This document shows positions 1,633 through 11,950 of a DNA stretch of 11,950 nucleotides, one piece after another. The stretch's first letter is position 1, and each line of letters starts with the position of its first letter. The stretch covers positions 1 through 11,950 of the forward strand of contig JAHLLK010000118.1 of the NCBI GenBank assembly GCA_020444165.1. The letters are read 5' to 3'. The stretch comes from Deltaproteobacteria bacterium (GTDB lineage: Bacteria > Desulfobacterota > Desulfarculia > Desulfarculales > Desulfarculaceae). Under the pieces are notes generated by a model. The model was given only the letters and a program-made list of their open reading frames with translations. It was not told where the DNA came from and did no database searches. The position numbers and the translations under genes are program-made.

Positions 1633-2745
1633 TCAGAGCCGCATGGGCATGATCACCGACAGGAAGCCCTCGTCACCCTCGCCCTTGATGAGGCAGGGGT
1701 TGTTCTCGTCCACAAACCCCAGGCTGATCATCTCCGAGCGCATGGCCCCGCAGAGATCCAGGAAATAGCGGGCGTTGAAGCCCACCTGGAAGGAGTCGCC
1801 GTCATACTCCACCTCCAGGGTTTCCCGCGCCTCGCCCAACTCCGGGTTCTGGCTGATCAGCTCCAGGAGGCTGTCCCGCAGCTCCAGGCGCACACCCTGG
1901 TAGCGGTCGGTGGCCAGGATGGAGACCCGGCGCAGCACGTCGGCAAAGGCCTGGCGGCCTACCATGATCCGGCGCTTGATGTTCTTGGGGATCACCACCT
2001 CATAGTCGGGGAAGGTGCCCTCGGTCATGCGCAGGATCAGCCGCTCCTCGGACTGGGTGAGCGAGGCCAGCTGCTTGCCCAGGCCCAGGGTCACCTGGCC
2101 GTCCTCGGCCATCTTGCGCATTTCCACCACCCCCTTGCGGGGGATGATCACGCCGTCTTCCAGGGTCAGGCCCTCCAGCCCGGGCAGGTCGCGGTCCACC
2201 AGGGACAGGCGATGGCCATCGGTGGAAACAAAGCGCAGGTAATAGGAATTGTCCCGCTGGCGCTTCTGGACGTAGAGACCCGCCAGATTGAAGCGGGTGT
2301 CCTCCTGGGAAATGGAGAAGATGGTCTTCTCGATCATTTCCTCCAGCAGCTCGCCGTCCATGGTGATCTCGCTCTGGTCGGCGATGTCGGGCAGCTTGGG
2401 GAAATCGTCGGCCGGCAAGCCCACCAGGTCATAATTGGTGCGCCCCCCGGAGACGTGGAGAAAGCTGTTCTCCTTCTCCTTGAGGTAAATATCCTCGCTG
2501 GGCAGCTCCTTCACGATCTCATAGAGCTTCCGAGCCGGCACGGTAAGACTCCCGGCACGGTTGATGTGCGCCTCGAAGGTTCCCTGATAGCTGGTTTCCA
2601 GGTCCGTGGCCCGGATGGAGAGCTTGCCGTCCGCCGCTTCCAACAGAACATTGCTCAGAATCGGCATGGAGGTGCGGCGCTCCACGACCGATTGCAGCTT
2701 GGCCAAGCCCTTGGCCAAGTTTTCTTTGCGCACCGTCAGTTCCAT
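1633..2745 (-). CDS. dnaN: DNA polymerase III beta subunit (sliding clamp)
   Basis: A 370-residue protein, close to the usual ~366 for bacterial beta clamps. The N-terminus (MELTVRKENLAKGLAKLQSV, then VERRTSMPILSNVLLEA) and the C-terminus ending in the family-typical VIMPMRL are diagnostic. Three consecutive clamp domains of roughly 120 residues are consistent with the length. In the cell two copies close as a ring around DNA and tether the replicative polymerase and other client proteins through a hydrophobic cleft formed partly by the C-terminal residues. The ATG at 2745 is preceded by a good ribosome site, GGAGAGAGG (about 2750-2759). Transcription points away from dnaA, but a terminator at 3827-3871 ends the dnaA transcript first, so dnaN probably has its own promoter within the gap. 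Nothing in the protein is odd. Confidence 0.98.
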   Translation of the reverse strand: MELTVRKENLAKGLAKLQSVVERRTSMPILSNVLLEAADGKLSIRATDLETSYQGTFEAHINRAGSLTVPARKLYEIVKELPSEDIYLKEKENSFLHVSGGRTNYDLVGLPADDFPKLPDIADQSEITMDGELLEEMIEKTIFSISQEDTRFNLAGLYVQKRQRDNSYYLRFVSTDGHRLSLVDRDLPGLEGLTLEDGVIIPRKGVVEMRKMAEDGQVTLGLGKQLASLTQSEERLILRMTEGTFPDYEVVIPKNIKRRIMVGRQAFADVLRRVSILATDRYQGVRLELRDSLLELISQNPELGEARETLEVEYDGDSFQVGFNARYFLDLCGAMRSEMISLGFVDENNPCLIKGEGDEGFLSVIMPMRL

Positions 2746-3014
2746 GTAGCCTCTCTCCGTATCGTTAGGGAACTTGCTTGCTTCCGCCTACCTTAACCCA
2801 ACCGTCCCCGCAAGGCAAGACCGGGGAGAAGCGCCCCAACACTCGGGCAGAGGCAGAGCAGGCAGTGCAGGCGGAATTCTGGAAGAGTGGTTCCGCTTGG
2901 CCGCCGGACAAGGGCGACCCGAGGCAGGAGAGGGAGCCGGCCATGTGGCTTCCCCCGGGAGACCCGGAAGCTGAGACCATTGCACGGTATTTTCTAGCAA
3001 ACAATAATTATAAC
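2746..3014. other. dnaN upstream region with decayed palindrome
   Basis: Non-coding leader side of dnaN. At 2805-2827 a short inverted repeat (TCCCCG / CGGGGA) sits in a context (ACCTTAACCCAACCGTCCCC GCAAGG) resembling the dispersed CTCACCC...TCTCCCGCAAGGGGAGA type intergenic elements of proteobacteria, here decayed. Open frames on the plus strand through this region lack a ribosome site and show no family features, so I do not call a gene. Confidence 0.4.
2980..3008 (+). promoter_or_regulatory. Candidate promoter firing into the hairpin row
   Basis: TTGCAC (2980-2985), a 17-bp spacer and AATAAT (3003-3008) give a sigma70-type arrangement. The -10 matches 5 of 6 consensus bases and the -35 matches 3 of 6. 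The expected start site, near 3015, coincides with the first base of the first hairpin. It lies in an isolated AT-rich island in GC-rich surroundings. Confidence 0.4.
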
Positions 3015-3036
3015 AGCCGATCATCTCGGCTATTGA
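3007..3036 (-). promoter_or_regulatory. dnaN: Candidate dnaN promoter (minus strand)
   Basis: The minus strand carries a perfect TATAAT at 3012-3007 with a poor -35 (TCAATA, 18-bp spacing, 3 of 6). It would give a dnaN leader of about 250 bases. It overlaps the plus-strand candidate and the first hairpin, so the two directions may compete. The weak -35 limits confidence. Confidence 0.35.
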
Positions 3037-3394
3037 TAGTTTTGTGTTGCGATGGTCTCCTGCGGGCCATGGACGGCCCGCCAAATCACAAGCCTGAAAG
3101 GCTAGTGATTTGTGCTGGTTGGCAAAACCGCGCTTTTGCCAACCACCTTAAGATGCACGGTGCAGGACGCACCGTGCATCACCCTCTATTCGTGAGGCTT
3201 GGCAAAACCCGGGCCCCCGGCAAGCTCTGTTTGATGGGGTGGAGTCACGCCTTTGCCAAGCCGATCGTTGCACAAGGCAGGGAGCCTTGTGCAACAGTCT
3301 CAAGCTGGGATTGGCCGGGAAGCCCGGCTGCTGGTCTGCGAGAAGAAGAAGGCGGACCGCCGGCCTGATCCCGGGAAAGAGCCCCGGTGGCCGG
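3015..3394. other. Row of at least nine consecutive hairpins (possible structured RNA or DNA cruciform array)
   Basis: Stems in order: 3015-3031 (AGCCGA/TCGGCT); 3062-3081 (GCGGGCC/GGCCCGC); 3082-3112 (CAAATCAC/GTGATTTG with inner AGCCT/AGGCT and one A-A mismatch); 3116-3145 (TGGTTGGCAAAA/TTTTGCCAACCA, 12 bp perfect); 3152-3180 (GATGCACGGTGC/GCACCGTGCATC, 12 bp perfect); 3196-3262 (GGCTTGGCAAA/TTTGCCAAGCC, 45-base loop); 3267-3295 (GTTGCACAAGGC/GCCTTGTGCAAC, 12 bp perfect); 3314-3328 (GCCGGG/CCCGGC); 3360-3394 (CCGGCC/GGCCGG enclosing a second stem). The stems differ in sequence but have similar size and a spacing near 30-35 bases, and none is followed by a T-run on the plus strand. They lie between the dnaA terminator and dnaN. 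I do not recognise any known RNA family; 6S, tmRNA, SRP and RNase P hallmarks are absent. Confidence 0.75.
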
Positions 3395-3826
3395 AAGCGA
3401 CGCGGGACGTTTGGAAGTGAGAACGAGGAAGAGAAAATCAGGAGAGAACGCTGCCGGAGCCCAAGCTCCTGAAGAGGAGGCTGGGAACATACGAAATCAG
3501 TTTACCTGCCCGCTTACCTGCGTCACGCGGCAGGAGACCGCCTAAGACACCTGGAGCCGAAACCGCGGGGGAGTGCTCGGGCAGGCTTTGCGCTCTCGGG
3601 GGAGAGCTGCGTACTCTAGCAGGCTGCTGCAAAACAGCCTGCCAGGGAAGAGCCGGGATTGCTCTTGATCACCCCGGGATTACTCCTCTCCCTGAGCAAA
3701 TGGTTCATCAGGAGACGCTGCGCCCACCCCTCTTCCCCTTTCCCTACCCTCTTCCCCTTCCGCGGCCCCACGTTCCGGCTCCCTGCCCCGCCCTGCCCAG
3801 GTGCCTCCGCCCGGAAACATATCCCC
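3395..3826. other. Non-coding gap between hairpin row and dnaA terminator
   Basis: No gene is supportable. One further hairpin stands out, GCAGGCTG (3619-3626) against CAGCCTGC (3635-3642) with loop CTGCAAAA, plus a small CTCCT-GAAG-AGGAG at 3466-3479. From about 3720 to 3800 the plus strand is pyrimidine-rich (many CCC and CTTCCCC runs), so the minus-strand sequence is purine-rich. Confidence 0.45.
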
Positions 3827-3871
3827 AAAAAAGCGACCGCGGCGGGGTGATCGAAATCTCCTCCGCCGCGG
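3827..3871 (-). terminator. dnaA: Intrinsic terminator downstream of dnaA
   Basis: On the minus strand CCGCGGCGG (3871-3863) pairs with CCGCCGCGG (3845-3837), extendable to about 11 bp with a G-T wobble, followed by TCGC and then TTTTTT (3832-3827). It lies some 165 bases beyond the dnaA stop, with the candidate oriC between. It implies that dnaA and dnaN are separate transcription units. Confidence 0.82.
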
Positions 3872-3872
3872 G

Positions 3873-4018
3873 TGTGTTCTTATATATTGATAGAGTCTTT
3901 TCTTTTTAAAGAAGTAATCAAGGCAGGGAAGGAGGAATGGTGGAAAACTAACCTAGGTTGCTGATTAAGCTGAGGAAAGAACATCAACAGTTTTCCACCG
4001 GTTCTCAGCTTGTCCACC
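3873..4018. other. Candidate oriC: AT-rich stretch plus DnaA-box-like sites
   Basis: An AT-rich tract (about 3874-3920, containing TCTTATATATTGATAG and TTTTCTTTTTAAAGAAG) in otherwise GC-rich DNA is a natural unwinding-element candidate. Beside it are TTTTCCACC on the minus strand (3947-3939), TTTTCCACC on the plus strand (3991-3999) and TTGTCCACC (4010-4018). These match the core TCCAC of the TTATCCACA DnaA box with two or three mismatches. The first two form an exact 11-bp inverted repeat (GGTGGAAAACT / AGTTTTCCACC) around a 39-base centre that contains the palindrome AACCTAGGTT (3950-3959). Location between dnaA and dnaN is a common oriC position (established). Only three boxes are seen, so part of the origin may be elsewhere, for example near TTTTCCACT at 5824-5832. 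Confidence 0.62.
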
Positions 4019-4037
4019 CTGCCCCGGCCGCGGAGGC

Positions 4038-5390
4038 CTACATTCCACCAGTCCTCAACCCGGCTCCCGGCATGTATCCCCCGCCCAACAGCTCGCGCTC
4101 CAGGTCGCGCACGTCCTCGGCCAGATTCGGCTCCTTGCCCAGCATCTCCTCGATTTTCTTGACGCCTTTGACCACGGTGGAGTGGTCCTTGCCGCCCAGG
4201 GCGCGGCCGATCTCCGGGAAGCTGGAGCGGGTGAGCCGCCGGGCCAGGTACATGGCCACCTGGCGGGGGTGGGTCACGTCCCGGGTCTTGCGCCCGGATT
4301 TCAGGTCGCTGACCTTGAGCCCGTAGCGCGAGGAGACCGCTTTCAAGACCTCCTCCACCCCCACCCGGCGCTCGCCCACCAGGGGGCCCACCACCCGGCG
4401 GGCCAGGTCCAGGGTCACCTCCACCCCCTGGAAGCGGCTCACCGCCAGGATGCGGGTGAGGTAGCCTTCCAGGACCCGGACGTTGGTCTCGGGCTGCCGG
4501 GCCAGGAAAAAGGCCACCTGCCTGGACAGCTCCAGGCCCTTTTCCCGGGACTTGCGCTGCAGGATGGCTACCTTGGTCTCCTCGTCCGGCGGCTGCAGGT
4601 CGCACAAGAGCCCGCTCTCAAAGCGGGTGCACAGCCGCTGCTCCAGGCCGGAGATGTCCCGGGGCGCCTTGTCGCTGGTGATGATGATCTGGCGTCCGGT
4701 CTCGTAGAGGGTGTTGAAGGTATGGAAGAACTCTTCCTGGGTGCGCTCGCGGCCGGCCAGGAACTGGACGTCCTCCATGATGAGGCAGTCCATCTGGCGG
4801 TATTTTTCTTGGAAGCGGTTCATGCCGTCGAAGCGGACCGCCTGGATCAGCTCGTTGGTAAAGGCCTCGGAGGTGCAGTAGTGCACCCGCTTGTTCTTGT
4901 GGTGCAGCAGAATGTAGTTGCCCACTGCGGTGACCAGGTGGGTCTTGCCCAGGCCGGCCCCGCCAAAGAGGAACAGCGGGTTGTAGTGCTTGCCCGGCTG
5001 CTGGGACACGGCCTGACAGGCGGCGTGAGCCAGCTCGTTGCAGGTGCCCACCACAAAGTTGGCAAAGGTATATAGGGGATTGAGCAAGGTGGGCGGCGTC
5101 GATTCCAGTGTCTCCACCGCGGCCATGACCGATGATTCGTCAAAGCCGCCGTCGGTCACCTCGAAGCTTACGTCCATCTGCTGGCCCGTGACCCGGTGCA
5201 GGGCCAGGGCGATATGACTGAGGTAGTGTTCCCGGATCCAGTCTATGAAGAACCGGTTCGGGGCCAGAATGACCGCTTGGGAGCCTTCCCGTCGAAGGCC
5301 GAGCGGAGCTATCCACGTCTCGTATTCTTGGATACCGAGCTGCGCTCTGAGGTGTTCGGAGACTCCCTGCCACAATTCGGATGCGGGCAA
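4038..5390 (-). CDS. dnaA: Chromosomal replication initiator DnaA
   Basis: A 450-residue protein with all DnaA landmarks. Domain I starts at once (LWQGVSEHLRAQLGIQEYETWIAPL, as separate blocks ELW and WIAPL). Domain II is a short linker (about 80-103). The AAA+ domain opens at NPLYTFANFVVG (104-115). Walker A is GGAGLGKT (143-150), Walker B is LIMED (203-207), and sensor/arginine-finger segments lie around TSDKAPRDISGLEQRL and TRFESGL. Domain IV ends with the DNA-binding signature PEIGRALGGKDHSTV (392-406). DnaA-ATP assembles on oriC and melts the adjacent AT-rich DNA. The start is TTG, supported by the GAAGGTG ribosome site four bases upstream and by domain I beginning immediately. Walker B has Glu-Asp where Asp-Asp is usual, a conservative change. 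Confidence 0.98.
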   Translation of the reverse strand: MPASELWQGVSEHLRAQLGIQEYETWIAPLGLRREGSQAVILAPNRFFIDWIREHYLSHIALALHRVTGQQMDVSFEVTDGGFDESSVMAAVETLESTPPTLLNPLYTFANFVVGTCNELAHAACQAVSQQPGKHYNPLFLFGGAGLGKTHLVTAVGNYILLHHKNKRVHYCTSEAFTNELIQAVRFDGMNRFQEKYRQMDCLIMEDVQFLAGRERTQEEFFHTFNTLYETGRQIIITSDKAPRDISGLEQRLCTRFESGLLCDLQPPDEETKVAILQRKSREKGLELSRQVAFFLARQPETNVRVLEGYLTRILAVSRFQGVEVTLDLARRVVGPLVGERRVGVEEVLKAVSSRYGLKVSDLKSGRKTRDVTHPRQVAMYLARRLTRSSFPEIGRALGGKDHSTVVKGVKKIEEMLGKEPNLAEDVRDLERELLGGGYMPGAGLRTGGM

Positions 5391-6060: not shown

Positions 6061-6831
6061 TTGGCTTTCACCATCGCCGTGGCCGGCAAGGGCGGAGTGG
6101 GCAAAACCACGGTGGCCGGTCTGTTGGTTCGTTATCTCGTGGAAAAAGGTCTCACCCCCGTCTTGGCGGTGGACGCCGATTCCAACTCCAACCTGAACGA
6201 CGTCATGGGCCTGCCCCTGGACAGCACCTTGGGCGACGCCCGCGAGGAGATGAAAAAGGGCCAGAGCCAGGGCATGACCAAGGATCTCTTCATAGGGATG
6301 CGGGTGAACCAATGCCTGGTGGAGTCCCAGGGCTATGACCTCATCGCCATGGGCCGGCCCGAGGGCGCGGGCTGCTACTGCGCGGCCAACCACCTCTTGA
6401 CCGACTGCATGGACAAGCTGGCCGAGAACTACAAGTACCTGGTGGTGGACAACGAAGCCGGCATGGAGCACATCAGCCGGGTGACCACCCAGCGGGTGGA
6501 CTACCTCCTGGTGATCAGCGACCCCAGCCGCCGGGGCCTCAACGCCGCCCGCCGGGTGGCCGAGCTGGCCGAGCAGATGAAGATCCTCACCGGCCCGGCC
6601 AAGTTGATCCTCTCCATGGTCCGCGGCGAGCCGGACCCCATCCTGGCGGAAGTGGCCCAGGACTTCGGGCTGGAGCTGGCCGGCTACATCCCCGATGACC
6701 CCGAGCTGGCGAGCTATGACCTTAAGGGCGCGCCGACTTCGGAATTGCCCGCAAACAATCCGGCCTTAACCGCGGCCTTTGCAATTTTCGATGAATTGCT
6801 GGCCAAGGAAGTAGCTGAAAACAAAGGCTAA
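6061..6831 (+). CDS. cooC: CooC-type nickel-insertion ATPase for CO dehydrogenase/acetyl-CoA synthase
   Basis: A 256-residue MinD/SIMIBI-type P-loop ATPase. The deviant Walker A GKGGVGKTT spans residues 9-17, with the signature lysine at 10. DADSNSNL (38-45) forms the switch region. The paired cysteines of CooC proteins appear as GCYC (Cys105, Cys107); in the family this CxC binds metal at the dimer interface (established). The protein hydrolyses ATP to load nickel into the C-cluster of CooS, and close relatives (AcsF) act on acetyl-CoA synthase; sequence alone does not separate the two roles. Start is TTG at 6061, supported by AGGAGGAAAGGAG (6041-6053) seven bases upstream and by the P-loop beginning right after it. 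It is the first gene of the cluster and is separated from acsD by 237 bases. Confidence 0.93.
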   Translation: MAFTIAVAGKGGVGKTTVAGLLVRYLVEKGLTPVLAVDADSNSNLNDVMGLPLDSTLGDAREEMKKGQSQGMTKDLFIGMRVNQCLVESQGYDLIAMGRPEGAGCYCAANHLLTDCMDKLAENYKYLVVDNEAGMEHISRVTTQRVDYLLVISDPSRRGLNAARRVAELAEQMKILTGPAKLILSMVRGEPDPILAEVAQDFGLELAGYIPDDPELASYDLKGAPTSELPANNPALTAAFAIFDELLAKEVAENKG

Positions 6832-7068: not shown

Positions 7069-8631
7069 TTGGCTTTCGAAGTCCCTAAAATCAAATACTC
7101 AGGTGCCATCAAGGAAGTAGAAGTGGGTCAGCCCGGCGCCACCGTCACGGTCGGCGGCGAGTCCAGCTACCCCTTCCATGTCTTTGAGGGCAAAATGCCC
7201 AACAAGCCGCTTCTGGCCATGGAAGTGTGGGACATGGAGCCCACCGAATGGCCGGCGGCTTGTGCCGAGCCTTTCCAAGGCGTGCTGGGCGACCCCGCCG
7301 CGTGGGCCAAGAAGTGCGTCGAAGAATTCGGCGCCCAAGCCATCGTGGTGCAGCTGAAGTCCACCGATCCCAACGGCGACGACGCGCCGGCCGCCCAAGC
7401 CAGCGCCAGCGTGGGCAAGGTGCTGGGCGCGGTGAGCGTTCCGGTCATCGTCTGGGGTTGCGCCAACGCCAACAAGGACGCCGAGGTTCTCAAGAAGATC
7501 GCCGAGGATTACGAGGGCAAGAACCTGCTCTTGGGTCCGGTGGACGAAGACAACCACAAGTCCGTCGGCGCCGCGGCCCTGGCTTACAAACATTCCCTGA
7601 TTTCTTCCAGCCCCATCGACGTCAACTTGGCCAAACAGTTGAACATCCTCCTGGGCAACCTGGGCGTGCCCCTGGAGCGCCTGGTGATCGATCCCACCAC
7701 CGGCGGTCTGGGCTATGGCATGGAGTACAGCTACTCCGTGATGGAGCGCATCCGCGCCGCCGCCCTGGTGCAGGAAGATGACAAGCTGGTGCTGCCCATG
7801 ATCAACAACGTGGGCAACGAGGTTTGGAAGTCCAAGGAAGCCGTGACCACCGAAGATGCCAGCCTGGGCGACAACATGAAGCGCGGCATCTTGATGGAAA
7901 CCGCCGCGGCCGTGGCTTACCTCTTGGCCGGCACCGACATCCTCATCCTGCGTCATCCCCAGACCCTGAAAAACATCCGCGCCTTCATCGACAAGCTCTC
8001 GGCCGAGCGGGCCCCCGCCGCCGCCAAGACCGCGGTCGACCGGCCCAAGGTGGCCGCTCTGGCCGGCGCCAAGCCCGCCGCCAAACCCGCCGCCGCTCCG
8101 GCCGCCAAGCCCGCCGCTCCGGCTGCGGCCAAGCCCGCCGCCGCCCCGGCTGCCAAGCCCGCCGCCGCCGCCCCGGCTGCCGCCGCGCCCGAGAAGGCCG
8201 CCGCGGAAGCCGATGCCAAGGCCAAGGCCGAAGCCGCCGCCAAGGTCAAGGCCGAAGCCGAGGCCGCCGCCAAGGCCAAGGCCTCTGACGCCGCCGCCGT
8301 CAAGGCCGCCGAGGAAGCCAAGGCCAAAGCCGCGGCCGATGCCAAGCTCAAGGCCGCGGCCGACGCCAAGGCCGAGGAAGCCGCCGCCGAAGCCGCCCGT
8401 CGCGACGCTGTGCAGAAGCAGCGCGACGAAGTGGCCGAGCTCCGCCGCCAGCGCGCCGCCGAACGGGCCAAGCTGGATGCCGAGCGCGAGGCCAAGGCTT
8501 GCGCCCCCGCGGCCGAGGACGTGGAGTACGGCGAGTACCGCGCCGCTGGCGTGGCCGGTCCCGAAGCATCGTACATCGAGCGGTCTCTCGCTCGTTGGCA
8601 CCTCCGCGGCGACGGTTACCTGAAGCGTTAG
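7069..8631 (+). CDS. acsD: CODH/ACS corrinoid iron-sulfur protein small subunit (delta) with long C-terminal extension
   Basis: 520 residues, against about 310-325 for typical bacterial AcsD. Residues 1 to about 312 are the TIM-barrel corrinoid-protein subunit, recognisable by PLLAMEVWDMEP, VIVWGCANANKD, LLGPVDEDNHKSVGAAAL and DPTTGGLGYGMEYSYSVMER. With AcsC it carries the methyl group from methyltetrahydrofolate to acetyl-CoA synthase (established). The extension has three parts: a repeated PAAKPAA-type linker (about 335-374), a charged Ala/Lys/Glu/Arg stretch likely to form a long helix (about 375-476), and a tail (477-520) ending in SLARWHLRGDGYLKR. The tail matches the protein of the next gene. 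The layout (flexible linker, helix, short conserved end) resembles docking modules such as those in 2-oxoacid dehydrogenase E2 proteins. Start is TTG at 7069 behind GGGAGGGAG. Confidence 0.94.
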   Translation: MAFEVPKIKYSGAIKEVEVGQPGATVTVGGESSYPFHVFEGKMPNKPLLAMEVWDMEPTEWPAACAEPFQGVLGDPAAWAKKCVEEFGAQAIVVQLKSTDPNGDDAPAAQASASVGKVLGAVSVPVIVWGCANANKDAEVLKKIAEDYEGKNLLLGPVDEDNHKSVGAAALAYKHSLISSSPIDVNLAKQLNILLGNLGVPLERLVIDPTTGGLGYGMEYSYSVMERIRAAALVQEDDKLVLPMINNVGNEVWKSKEAVTTEDASLGDNMKRGILMETAAAVAYLLAGTDILILRHPQTLKNIRAFIDKLSAERAPAAAKTAVDRPKVAALAGAKPAAKPAAAPAAKPAAPAAAKPAAAPAAKPAAAAPAAAAPEKAAAEADAKAKAEAAAKVKAEAEAAAKAKASDAAAVKAAEEAKAKAAADAKLKAAADAKAEEAAAEAARRDAVQKQRDEVAELRRQRAAERAKLDAEREAKACAPAAEDVEYGEYRAAGVAGPEASYIERSLARWHLRGDGYLKR

Positions 8632-8782
8632 GATAGGGCGAGCCCTGGAAGCCGGGCCCCAGGTCCGCGCTTCAGCCGGGCTCTTCCCCCGCGCCGGGGC
8701 TGATCCTGGCCCCCTGCAGCTCCGATTTTCCACCCCGGGGCGGGATGGCAAATAAACCCCCACCGGAGGAGGGAACTCTAAA
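8632..8782 (+). other. Intergenic spacer between acsD and the 55-residue gene
   Basis: A GC-rich spacer with an imperfect hairpin (GAGCCC 8640-8645 with GGGCTC 8678-8683, inner GAAGC 8648-8652 with GCTTC 8669-8673) and a short CCCC/GGGG hairpin near 8687-8699. Neither is followed by a T-run, so read-through into the next gene is likely. Confidence 0.4.
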
Positions 8783-8950
8783 ATGGCCGCTGGCAGCAAG
8801 AAAACGGCGATTCAGGCCAAGTGCGCTCCTGGAAGCGCCAAGGAATACGGTCAGGGTCGTGAAGCCGGTATGGCCGGGCCTCAGGCCCAGTTCATTGAAA
8901 AGTCCCTGCAGCGCTGGAAGCTCCGGGGCGACGGTTACCTGAAACATTAA
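8783..8950 (+). CDS. 55-residue protein: free-standing copy of the AcsD C-terminal tail
   Basis: ATG at 8783 with a strong ribosome site GGAGGAGGG (about 8765-8773); TAA at 8948-8950. From Cys14 to the end it aligns with AcsD 478-520 with one gap: 27 of 42 aligned residues are identical, including CAP, EYG, the AGP before the last helix, IE, SL, RW and LRGDGYLK. Both proteins end one basic residue after that block. The N-terminal 13 residues (MAAGSKKTAIQAK) are basic and unique. There is no signal peptide or membrane segment. Conserved protein sequence at lower nucleotide similarity, its own ribosome site and its place between acsD and cooS support a real gene. I know of no named family. Possible roles, all inferred: a docking competitor, an assembly factor, or a small structural subunit binding the same partner as the AcsD tail. 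Confidence 0.87.
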   Translation: MAAGSKKTAIQAKCAPGSAKEYGQGREAGMAGPQAQFIEKSLQRWKLRGDGYLKH

Positions 8951-9147: not shown

Positions 9148-11193
9148 ATGTCGGCAGACGAAATCAAAGTCAAGGCCGAGCCCAAGGAATCGAAGGCCGA
9201 TCCCAAGAAGGTCACCGTATGTGTGGCCTCCCAAGAGATGCTGGCCAAGGCCCAAGCCGAGGGTATCGAGACCATTTTTGACCGTGCCGTGTCCATGAAA
9301 CCCTGCCCCACCGGCAACCAGGGCACCTGCTGCAAGATGTGCGCCCAGGGTCCCTGCCGGCTGCCCTTGCCCAAGAAGGGCATCGAGGGCAAGGATGAGC
9401 GCAAGGGTCTGTGCGGCGCCACTCCCGAGACCATCGCGGCCCGTAACTTCGCCCGCATGGTCGCCGCCGGCGCGGCCGCGCACAGCGACCACGGCCGCGG
9501 GGTGGCCGAAACCTTCCTGGCCGCCGCTCGCCAGGAGACCCACGACTACAAGATTCAGGACACTGAGAAGCTGTTGGAAGTGGCCAAGGTCTTTGGCGTG
9601 CCCACCACCGTCATGGTGGAAAAGGACGGCCAGAAGATCGAAGAAGAGCGCGACATCTACGAGATCGCCGTGGAAGTCGGCGAATTGGCCCTGGGCGAAT
9701 GGGGCAAGCAGAACGGCGAGATCATCTACGCCAAGCGCGCTCCCGAGGCCCGTTACCAACTGTGGAAGGACCTGGACGTGATTCCCCGCGGCGTGGACCG
9801 CGAGATCGTGGAAATCATGCACCGCACCCACATGGGCGTGGACCAGGACTACAAAAACATCATAAAGCAGTGCTCCCGCGCGGCCCTGGCCGACGGCTGG
9901 TGCGGCTCCATGATCGCCACCGACCTCCAGGACATCATGTTCGGCACCCCTTACCCGGTGCAGGGCGAGATCAACCTGGGCGTCCTGAAGCAGGATCACG
10001 TCAACATCATCGTGCATGGTCACGAGCCGCTGTTGTCCGAGATGATCGTGGTGGCCTCCCAGAGCGAGGAGATGCTGAACTACGCCAAGCAGAAGGGCGC
10101 CAAGGGCATCGTGCTGGCGGGTATGTGCTGCACCGCCAACGAGATCCTGGTCCGCCACGGCATGCCCATCGCCGGCAACTTCCTGCAACAGGAACTGGCC
10201 CTGATCACCGGCGCCGTCGACGCCATGGTCGTGGACGTGCAGTGCATCATGGAGAACTTGGCCAACGTGGCCGGGTGCTACCACACCAAGCTCATCACCA
10301 CCAACCCCCGGGCCATGGTGGAATCCGGTGAGACCATCCACATCGAGTTCGACGAGCACCACGCCCTGGAAGACGCCAAGCGGATCGTCAAGGAAGCCGT
10401 CGACAACTTCACCAACCGCCGGGCCGAGGTCATCATCCCCAAGGCCAAGGAAATGATGGTGGCGGGCTTCTCCTCGGAAGCCATCACCTATCACCTGGGC
10501 GGCACCTTCCGCGGCTCCTACTTCCCGCTGAACGACAACATCATCAACGGGCGCATCCGGGGCATCGGCGGCGTGGTGGGCTGCAACAACGCCCGCACCA
10601 CCCAGGACGAAAGCCACCTGATCATCGTCAAGGAGCTTCTGAAGAACGACGTCATCGTGCTGACCACCGGCTGCAACGCCATGGCCTGCGGCAAGGCCGG
10701 CCTCCTGACCCCCGAAGCCGCCAAGGTCTACTGCGGCCCCGGCCTGGCCGAGGTCTGTGAGACCGTGGGCATCCCGCCGGTTCTGCACATGGGCTCCTGC
10801 GTGGACAACAGCCGCATTCTGATAGCCGCCACCGAAGTGGTGAAGGCCGGCGGTCTGGGCAAGGACATCAGCGACCTGCCCGCGGCCGGTTCCGCCCCCG
10901 AATGGATGAGCGAGAAAGCCATCTCCATCGGTCACTACTTCGTGGCCAGCGGTGTGTACACCGTCTTCGGCGTGGGCCTGCCCATCACCGGCGCCCCCCG
11001 CTTCCAGAACTACCTCTTCAAGGAGCTGGAAGACATCTACGGTGGCATGTGGGACTTGGTGGTGGATCCCTACGAGCACGCCCGCAAGATGATCGCCCAC
11101 ATCGACAAGAAGCGCGCCGCCCTGGGTCTGGACAAGGGCAAGGAGCGCGTGCTCATGGATATGGCCGCCCGTCAGAAATTGGACGTGGCCTAA
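9148..11193 (+). CDS. cooS: Ni-Fe carbon monoxide dehydrogenase catalytic subunit (CooS/AcsA)
   Basis: 681 residues, near the length of acetogen AcsA. It interconverts CO and CO2 at a Ni-Fe-S C-cluster and, in the CODH/ACS complex, supplies CO to AcsB. N-terminal cysteines Cys53 and Cys61 fit the inter-subunit D-cluster; Cys62, Cys65, Cys70 and Cys89 fit the B-cluster (pattern CCKMCAQGPC). C-cluster ligands are all present: histidine in HGHEP (290-294), Cys in GMCC (327/328), DVQC (366), VGCN (479), TTGCN (509) and GSC (551). HSDHGR (112-117) and ISIGHYFVASG (592-602) are typical conserved segments. The first ~25 residues are lysine-rich and acidic (EIKVKAEPKESKADPKK), probably a flexible extension. 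The ATG has a good GAGGAGG site eight bases upstream. Forty-two bases separate it from acsB. Confidence 0.98.
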   Translation: MSADEIKVKAEPKESKADPKKVTVCVASQEMLAKAQAEGIETIFDRAVSMKPCPTGNQGTCCKMCAQGPCRLPLPKKGIEGKDERKGLCGATPETIAARNFARMVAAGAAAHSDHGRGVAETFLAAARQETHDYKIQDTEKLLEVAKVFGVPTTVMVEKDGQKIEEERDIYEIAVEVGELALGEWGKQNGEIIYAKRAPEARYQLWKDLDVIPRGVDREIVEIMHRTHMGVDQDYKNIIKQCSRAALADGWCGSMIATDLQDIMFGTPYPVQGEINLGVLKQDHVNIIVHGHEPLLSEMIVVASQSEEMLNYAKQKGAKGIVLAGMCCTANEILVRHGMPIAGNFLQQELALITGAVDAMVVDVQCIMENLANVAGCYHTKLITTNPRAMVESGETIHIEFDEHHALEDAKRIVKEAVDNFTNRRAEVIIPKAKEMMVAGFSSEAITYHLGGTFRGSYFPLNDNIINGRIRGIGGVVGCNNARTTQDESHLIIVKELLKNDVIVLTTGCNAMACGKAGLLTPEAAKVYCGPGLAEVCETVGIPPVLHMGSCVDNSRILIAATEVVKAGGLGKDISDLPAAGSAPEWMSEKAISIGHYFVASGVYTVFGVGLPITGAPRFQNYLFKELEDIYGGMWDLVVDPYEHARKMIAHIDKKRAALGLDKGKERVLMDMAARQKLDVA

Positions 11194-11235: not shown

Positions 11236-11950
11236 ATGTCTAAAATGGTCGCTTTCGCCGCCATCCAGGGTGCGTACAACATCGTATCCAAGGTGGAAGG
11301 TCAATATAAGCAAGCCGTGGAGAAGTACGGACCCGAGCAGAAGCTCGAATTCCCCAACACCGCTTACTATCTCCCCATCATCTACTCCCTGCTGGGCATT
11401 CCGGTCTCCGACCTGGCCACGGCCAAACGGCCCCTGGAAATCGCCCGCCAGCTCTTGCCCTCGCACGTGAAGAATTTCCATCACCTGCCCTACCTGGGTC
11501 CCCTGCTGGACGCGGGCATGGCCGCCCTGTTCGCCGAGGAAATCTCCGAAGCCATCCGCTACGTGGAAGACCCCGACTTCTATCAGTTGGGCGAGGACTG
11601 CGACCTGGAAAACGGCAAGCTGTGGCTGGGCGCGGCTGACGACACCATCATGCGTAAACGCGGCGTCGAGTTCGTGGACGGTTCGGCACCGGGCTTCGCG
11701 GCCATCGTGGGCGCGGCTCCCGATCCCGAGACCGCCAAGATGATCGCCGAGGAGTATCAGCGCCGCAACCTGTACATCTTCATGGCCGCCAATCAGAACG
11801 GCACCACTTTCTCCGAGCAGCTGGTGCAGGCGGGAGTGCAGGTGGGCTGGGGCACCCGGTTGGTGCCCTTCTCCCCGGACATCGCCGGCGCCGTGTTCGC
11901 CCTGGGCTTCGCCAACCGCGCGGCCATGGCCTTCGGCGGCGTGAAACCCG
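11236..11950 (+). CDS. acsB: Acetyl-CoA synthase subunit AcsB (5' part, cut by window end)
   Basis: The open frame runs from ATG 11236 to the window edge, 238 complete codons of a protein usually above 700 residues. The N-terminus reads MSKMVAFAAIQGAYNIVSKV, and KLEFPNTAYYLPIIYSLLG, FHHLPYLGPLLDAGMAA and NLYIFMAANQNGTTFSEQL are characteristic of the AcsB/CdhC family. This is the N-terminal domain that contacts CODH and forms the CO tunnel end; the Ni-Ni-Fe4S4 A-cluster ligands lie in the C-terminal part outside the window. AcsB condenses CO from CooS, methyl from the corrinoid protein and CoA into acetyl-CoA. A GGGGGAAGGAAT ribosome site precedes the start. AcsC, AcsE and other pathway genes may follow. 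Confidence 0.96.
   Translation, partial: MSKMVAFAAIQGAYNIVSKVEGQYKQAVEKYGPEQKLEFPNTAYYLPIIYSLLGIPVSDLATAKRPLEIARQLLPSHVKNFHHLPYLGPLLDAGMAALFAEEISEAIRYVEDPDFYQLGEDCDLENGKLWLGAADDTIMRKRGVEFVDGSAPGFAAIVGAAPDPETAKMIAEEYQRRNLYIFMAANQNGTTFSEQLVQAGVQVGWGTRLVPFSPDIAGAVFALGFANRAAMAFGGVKP

Follow-up and report, generated by a model that had tools for sequence, protein, structure and literature searches.

A module shared by the AcsD tail, small free proteins and the methyltransferase AcsE in Desulfobacterota, and its possible role as a docking pair

In the CODH/ACS operons of some Desulfobacterota, a module of about 40 residues ends the corrinoid protein (CFeSP) subunit AcsD and recurs either as a small free protein or at the C-terminus of the methyltransferase AcsE. 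This module family is real and conserved, and no description of it was found; a literature search that took in few subscription journals gave no paper on the AcsD tail or on the free copy. As the sequence-only reading of this DNA had proposed, one operon holds the same module both tethered and free, and an assembly or docking role is still the most sensible reading of that arrangement; judged from sequence, docking is likely. The narrower proposal, that the two copies form a docking pair, each half binding the other and so tying CFeSP to AcsE, has in our estimate close to an even chance of being right.

The module was noticed in a stretch of 11,950 nucleotides from a deltaproteobacterium of the Desulfarculaceae (contig JAHLLK010000118.1), called the window below. 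Open reading frames and domain searches gave the plus-strand order cooC, acsD, an ORF of 55 residues, cooS and the start of acsB. The product of the first gene we take to be CooC from gene order and family knowledge. The features are as follows.

6061..6831, plus strand: cooC-like nickel-insertion ATPase gene, first of the operon, TTG start, CbiA/ParA-type matches
7069-8631, plus strand: acsD, TTG start, 520 aa
7069..8001, plus strand: acsD core, residues 1-311, CFeSP small subunit barrel (CdhD, NF003377)
8041..8235, plus strand: Pro/Ala/Lys-rich hinge of AcsD, about residues 325-389, predicted disordered (pLDDT block means 35-52)
8236..8499, plus strand: single long charged helix of AcsD, residues 390-477 (88 residues), predicted by AlphaFold2 (pLDDT block means 51-91)
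8491..8526, plus strand: charge flank of the AcsD tail, AKACAPAAEDVE, net -2
8500..8628, plus strand: tail copy of the module, AcsD residues 478-520
8765..8773, plus strand: Shine-Dalgarno-like GGAGGAGGG of the small gene, found by eye, 9 bases 5' of the ATG
8783..8950, plus strand: small gene, 55 aa, ATG start, free module copy at residues 14-55
8810..8845, plus strand: charge flank of the free copy, IQAKCAPGSAKE, net +1
9148..11193, plus strand: cooS (acsA), CODH catalytic subunit, the gene after the small gene (TIGR01702, 2.5e-185)
11236..11950, plus strand: acsB, ACS subunit, truncated by the window end (Pfam CODH_A_N)

Upstream of the operon, minus-strand ORFs at 1633-5390 resemble dnaN and dnaA by eye. 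The acs operon of another genome, G012, is found close to the end of a contig of 4.48 Mb (C1 near 4476327 of 4479191) and is perhaps also near the origin. Spurious ORFs at 1-1600 of the window have similar peptides in common, such as PRRRGPGGCAYW, which suggests dispersed DNA repeats.

The likeness of the AcsD tail to the small protein is exactly as claimed, with 27 of 42 columns identical and one gap. The local alignment joins AcsD residues 478-519 to residues 14-54 of the small protein with a BLOSUM62 score of 142; none of 5000 shuffles scored above 44. Of the 41 aligned codons, 31 match at the first base, 32 at the second and 16 at the third, and different codons encode 17 of the 27 identical residues. 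Since the likeness is at the protein level with few third-position matches, the two copies are old and not the product of a recent DNA duplication. Both begin with Cys-Ala-Pro (8500-8508 and 8822-8830), so that a redox link is possible there; CAP is also found in the tails of G016 and G018 and in the free protein P0025, and most other copies lack a Cys at this point. The ten copies that make up our profile A1 have ten invariant columns, including G-x-A-G-P and RW..RG.G, some of which are relaxed in later copies (W is replaced by F in G011, and P by E in the G021 tail).

Used alone as queries against a large protein set, the small protein and the AcsD tail each matched only the window itself. 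The small protein matched no Pfam family at E<=1 and, in NCBIfam, only rodlin (E 0.078, at 13 bits where the cut-off is 75); a search of the PDB with A1 gave 0 hits at E<=10. It took a profile of nine free copies to find public free proteins, of which 29 further ones were matched at E<=0.01, most of them unnamed. The small protein fits this family, in which the module of about 40 residues is a protein of its own. Free-module genes lie in the acs operon in the window and in nine other mapped cases, genomic context having been seen for few of the 29 public proteins. One of these is named from Desulfarculus baarsii, and genome G011 is probably D. baarsii, judging from the near identity of its free protein. 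Four proteins of 47-52 residues (P0009, P0014, P0018 and P0020) bear the source label acetyl-CoA decarbonylase/synthase complex subunit delta, an annotation probably carried over from the AcsD tail.

The window AcsD belongs to the AcsD/CdhD family (Pfam CdhD barrel PF03599, 1.6e-46; NCBIfam NF003377, 8.2e-183, above cut-off). The NF003377 match covers residues 1-404, and part of the extension is thus already within a curated model; it ends before the C-terminal module, and the free gene has no match to it. Solved AcsD homologues align only as far as about residue 313. In an AlphaFold2 model made from an alignment of 37 sequences the barrel core is well predicted. The long helix ends in an LRRxRxxER segment common to Desulfobacterales AcsD, and is followed by a loop and a short helix of low confidence (498-512). 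Aligned AcsD proteins of the Desulfobacterales type likewise have the hinge, a long charged helix with an LR.KRA.ER end and a terminal helix; most of them differ in the final 25-30 residues, which are of the type TPAxxQKSxxDKxLxxLxRIHRR.

In the order of Dethiosulfatarculus sandiegensis, A1 matched 18 of 21 genomes at E<=0.01 (16 strongly, G020 and G022 weakly), AcsD itself being present in 19. Matches were found in 16 of the 63 genomes of the class at E<=0.001, and strong ones (E<1e-6) in at least 12 of 395 genomes in a sample of the phylum. All matches at E<=1e-6 within the 21 genomes of the order fall in AcsD, AcsE, the free gene of the acs operon or a second AcsD of G001. In the phylum sample, for which at most 18 candidates per genome were scored, weak matches with E near 0.003-0.01 were put down to chance, several of them lying in frames some 500-540 aa long.

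Counting the window, 21 places were scored for a second copy, the other 20 being genomes that have the Desulfarculales-type module or, in G022, a variant of it. The second copy is a free gene before cooS in 6 of these 21 (the window, G001, G002, G011, G021, G022), a free gene after acsE in four (G003, G007, G012, G015) and fused to AcsE in three (G010, G013, G014). In one more, G004, it is probably fused as well, the AcsE linker running off the contig. No second copy was seen in three genomes with the acsD end, cooS and acsE all visible (G008, G009, G016), so CODH/ACS does not require the pair; the remaining four (G006, G018, G041, G112) were left unassigned. The suggested search for copies fused to other subunits has thereby found them, on AcsE, which is a different enzyme from AcsD. 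A domain scan found the pterin-binding domain in the fusion protein L130; the AcsE parts of the other two fusions match it at 97% and 87%, and all three adjoin an ORF of 447-448 aa, which in L130 is AcsC.

A further, stand-alone AcsD of D. sandiegensis is 1056 residues long and contains four repeats, each a coil plus a module, set 110-113 residues apart.

L137 4815-7982: four-module AcsD paralogue of D. sandiegensis

Its 18-kb contig gave no match to cooS, acsB or acsE. The ORF just downstream of the paralogue resembles, by eye, a transposase or helix-turn-helix protein.

The small gene is kept in other genomes, where it is under purifying selection. Among the free genes of four Desulfarculales-type genomes, dN/dS was 0.04-0.22 (six pairs, 47 codons each), and for the other module type, described below, it was 0.12-0.28 (three pairs, 43 codons each). 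The sequence-only reading had named conservation of the small gene and selection on its frame as points on which it could fail; the relatives pass both, with dN/dS at 0.04-0.28, a count outside which the window's own copy lies. The two copies within a genome are also more alike than copies at large (0.72 against 0.61 in 10 genomes; 0 of 100000 permutations), examples being the F that replaces W in each G011 copy and a variant common to both copies of G022. Kinship and the similarity of the G002 copies at the DNA level account for part of this likeness, and gene conversion could contribute (third-position identity in G002, 0.88).

A further regularity concerns charge. The flank charge was defined as the net charge of the 12 residues before the module. 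In the 11 genomes with both copies its sign is opposite in 10, with a Spearman correlation of -0.90. The values for tail and second copy are -6/+5 in G001, -7/+3 in G003, -6/+3 in G012, -9/+5 in G013, -9/+7 in G014, -6/+3 in G015, -7/+6 in G022, +6/-7 in G021, -2/+1 in the window, -1/+1 in G011 and -1/-3 in G002. The window's own contrast is therefore weak, G002 has the same sign in both, and in G021 the polarity is reversed jointly in both partners. With flank lengths of 8 to 16 residues the correlation ranged from -0.72 to -0.91 and the signs were opposite in 9 to 11 of 11. A charge product test was equalled in 1 of 20000 shuffles, and after a clade of five had been collapsed to one point an exact permutation test gave 16 of 5040; without G021 the collapsed set has a correlation of -0.78 (P 0.07). 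Opposite sign taken alone is not significant, about 8.4 pairs being expected from base rates against the 10 seen. We first spotted the charge rule by eye, in the Desulfarculales-type sequences together with L017, L024 and L053, and scored and tested it on the same sequences afterwards, so that its P values are exploratory; the genomes are related, and few independent events lie behind the counts.

Eight tails had no second copy found, the operon being seen whole in only three. Seven of them are near neutral (-1, -1, 2, 0, 0, 0, -1), and the eighth, G004 at -10, has an AcsE with a fusion-type linker. Absolute charge is higher in the two-copy genomes (P 0.0013 without G004, 0.012 with G004 counted as single). 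Among the 29 public free proteins, scored over 14 residues, 18 were positive, 8 negative and 3 zero, from which it follows that free proteins are not basic by default; P0020, P0022 and P0028, encoded on metagenome contigs, are strongly acidic. The four module flanks of the D. sandiegensis paralogue are -5, -2, -7 and -6, and its free gene is +5.

A tail with a free copy is found with a second module type as well. The profile A2, made from the Desulfobacterales-type AcsD ending, matched 39 of 42 genomes. By position and frame length these matches are AcsD ends, except that the end is cut by the contig in G442 and lies on a separate tail ORF in G410; there are also free ORFs in G410, G417 and G439. 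In the order of G439, A2 matched 38 of 85 genomes, and free ORFs beside acsD were added in G485, G495, G460 and G477. The tail-plus-free-copy pattern therefore exists with two module types. The two were not claimed as one family: hhalign gave a probability of 0.2% and no support for a relation, despite the common helix just upstream and the alignment of the end helices by MAFFT.

Flank signs were opposite in 7 of 7 Desulfobacterales-type pairs, all from one order, with tails at -1 to -3 and free genes at +4 to +8. Only G485, G495, G460 and G477, four of the seven, were fetched after the charge rule had been noted, and they are kin of L017, L024 and L053. Compared with 55 other tails, those that have a partner are the more acidic (P 4e-5, uncorrected for kinship); among tails without a free gene found, 5 of 48 are also -1 or -2, and G491 is -3. 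One tail of 52 (L066) had no anchor and was left out of these charges.

Two AcsD genes are split between core and tail, by a TAA overlapping an ATG in L017 (9971-11739) and by an in-frame TAG in the linker in L050 (9784-11358). In 5 of 5 cooS genes examined from the Desulfobacterales-type free-gene group, an in-frame TGA stands exactly at the Cys of GVVGCNNAR (Cys479 of the window CooS), with the flanking frame conserved.

L017 13374: cooS in-frame TGA
L024 4135: cooS in-frame TGA
L053 3416: cooS in-frame TGA
L213 1387-1389, minus strand: cooS in-frame TGA
L215 258-260, minus strand: cooS in-frame TGA

We take this position to be a ligand of the C-cluster. The TGA-bearing genes look like candidate selenocysteine CODHs. 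An internal TGA with readthrough, after a first part of 1,203 bp, is described for acsA of C. autoethanogenum in PMC4895105.

Free/fused exchange and charge matching are most simply read as an arm and clip with a homologous clip. One half would be borne by AcsD at the tip of a flexible arm, made of the Pro/Ala hinge and the 88-residue helix, and the second half would be either the free small protein, as in the window, or the C-terminus of AcsE. The halves would be homologous helices with charge-matched flanks and would bind each other directly. Fusion of the second half to AcsE would tie the corrinoid protein to its methyltransferase. When free, the second half would cap the AcsD arm or serve it as an adaptor, in the simplest case by recruiting AcsE through a putative second contact. 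Methyl donor enzyme, corrinoid carrier and, by existing contacts, CODH/ACS would be kept close, with a possible gain in methyl transfer. Both copies may additionally touch CooS, AcsB or AcsC. A bolder version, offered tentatively and with some doubt, is a charge-coded, self-complementary clip system of the Wood-Ljungdahl carbonyl branch, in which the AcsD arm bears one half, and AcsE or a free adaptor some 50 residues long bears its counterpart. CFeSP, methyltransferase and CODH/ACS would then form one tethered complex, under a code that arose as, or diverged into, at least two module types, with polarity flipping between lineages and four clips on one AcsD of D. sandiegensis.

The original suggestion that the small protein is a competitor or spacer fares less well, since it predicts like copies; the flanks are opposite in charge and change together, which favours pairing of the copies with each other. 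The same observation weighs against a reading which we hold to be rather unlikely, that the core enzyme (CooS, AcsB or AcsC) offers a single site to the AcsD tail, the free copy and the AcsE tail alike. CFeSP and AcsE would be recruited to the CODH/ACS core by their tethered copies, with the free copy competing for sites or filling spare ones. This would suit one module on three carriers of one operon, the co-variation of copies within a genome, which a shared receptor would require, and the multivalent binding expected of four modules on one AcsD; jointly switching opposite charges are unexpected for two ligands of one site, and no receptor-side feature was found. In G022 the module is strongly changed, and CooS is still 81% identical to that of the window with 9 private substitutions, a number that is not telling because canonical-module genomes have 10 (G009), 4 (G011) and 1 (G008). 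Counts of private substitutions in CooS, AcsB, AcsC and AcsE indicated no receptor. AlphaFold2 gave the C-terminal helix low confidence both beside CooS and in AcsD. In a D. sandiegensis module-linker-CooS chain (alignment of 41 rows, eleven other rows also carrying the module) the module had pLDDT near 30, with a helix at 30-41, and was left unplaced on CooS, a weak argument from a single chain and a shallow alignment. The alignment of the four repeats was dropped for folding, single-copy rows having stacked on repeat 1.

It is improbable that the free gene is a split-off or leftover tail of AcsE or AcsD with little function of its own. Three genomes show no second copy, as noted, and in a CooS tree the four genomes with a free gene after acsE form one supported clade with two of the fused genomes, the fused pair nested inside, as a leftover would suggest (G010 was not placed and G004 fell outside this clade). 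Purifying selection on the free genes, the second lineage with a module type of its own and the spread of the before-cooS form, in six genomes, over the tree all speak against it. More improbable still is a C-terminal amphipathic helix that binds membrane or nucleic acid, the free copy being its modulator. The short helix 498-512 of the AlphaFold2 model is basic and contains Trp, as this would need; membrane helices are usually less strictly conserved than the ten invariant columns of A1, and the charge matching would be left unexplained. A targeting peptide for a protein shell, either microcompartment or encapsulin, was suggested by the likeness to encapsulation peptides, which are short C-terminal helices on long linkers. 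As a general explanation it is close to refuted, and the shell dock once proposed is not supported: in the order the encapsulin model PF04454, the only one used for encapsulins, matched 0 of 21 genomes and the BMC shell domain PF00936 matched 2 of 21, against 18 of 21 for the module.

The shuttling of methyl groups by CFeSP between AcsE and the A-cluster is a central question for the carbonyl branch. If the docking pair is real, some sulfate reducers would use a tethered arm and an exchangeable docking pair for methyl transfer, and small unnamed proteins would be real parts of CODH/ACS. The naturally charge-flipped pairs (G021 against G001 or G022) would be ready-made tests of specificity and possibly tags for coupling C1 enzymes.

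Several known systems resemble the proposed one. In 2-oxoacid dehydrogenases the Ala/Pro linker and peripheral subunit-binding domain of E2 hold the carrier enzyme in a multienzyme complex. That domain is likewise a short helical module on an Ala/Pro-rich flexible linker; the AcsD system differs in its free copy, the swap to another enzyme and an arm with a long helix, and neither AcsD nor the small protein matched the E2 domain in Pfam. Cohesin-dockerin scaffolds, CsoS2 and EPYC1 carry tandem binding modules or motifs on one chain, as does the four-module AcsD of D. sandiegensis, in which the repeat-bearing chain is AcsD itself; to our knowledge the module is unrelated to them in sequence. 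Docking domains of modular polyketide synthases, also terminal helices on flexible linkers, pair between proteins with a specificity set by matching charged residues. The module has no sequence family in common with them in Pfam or NCBIfam, and its pairing is suggested only indirectly, by charge matching; the differences are that here both halves are homologous and one is in some cases a free protein some 50 residues long. The structures 4djd-4djf, which we take to show AcsE (MeTr) paired with CFeSP, include a homologue of the window AcsD, in 4djd a chain of 323 residues without the tail, and the enzymes paired in them are those that the AcsE fusion would tie together.
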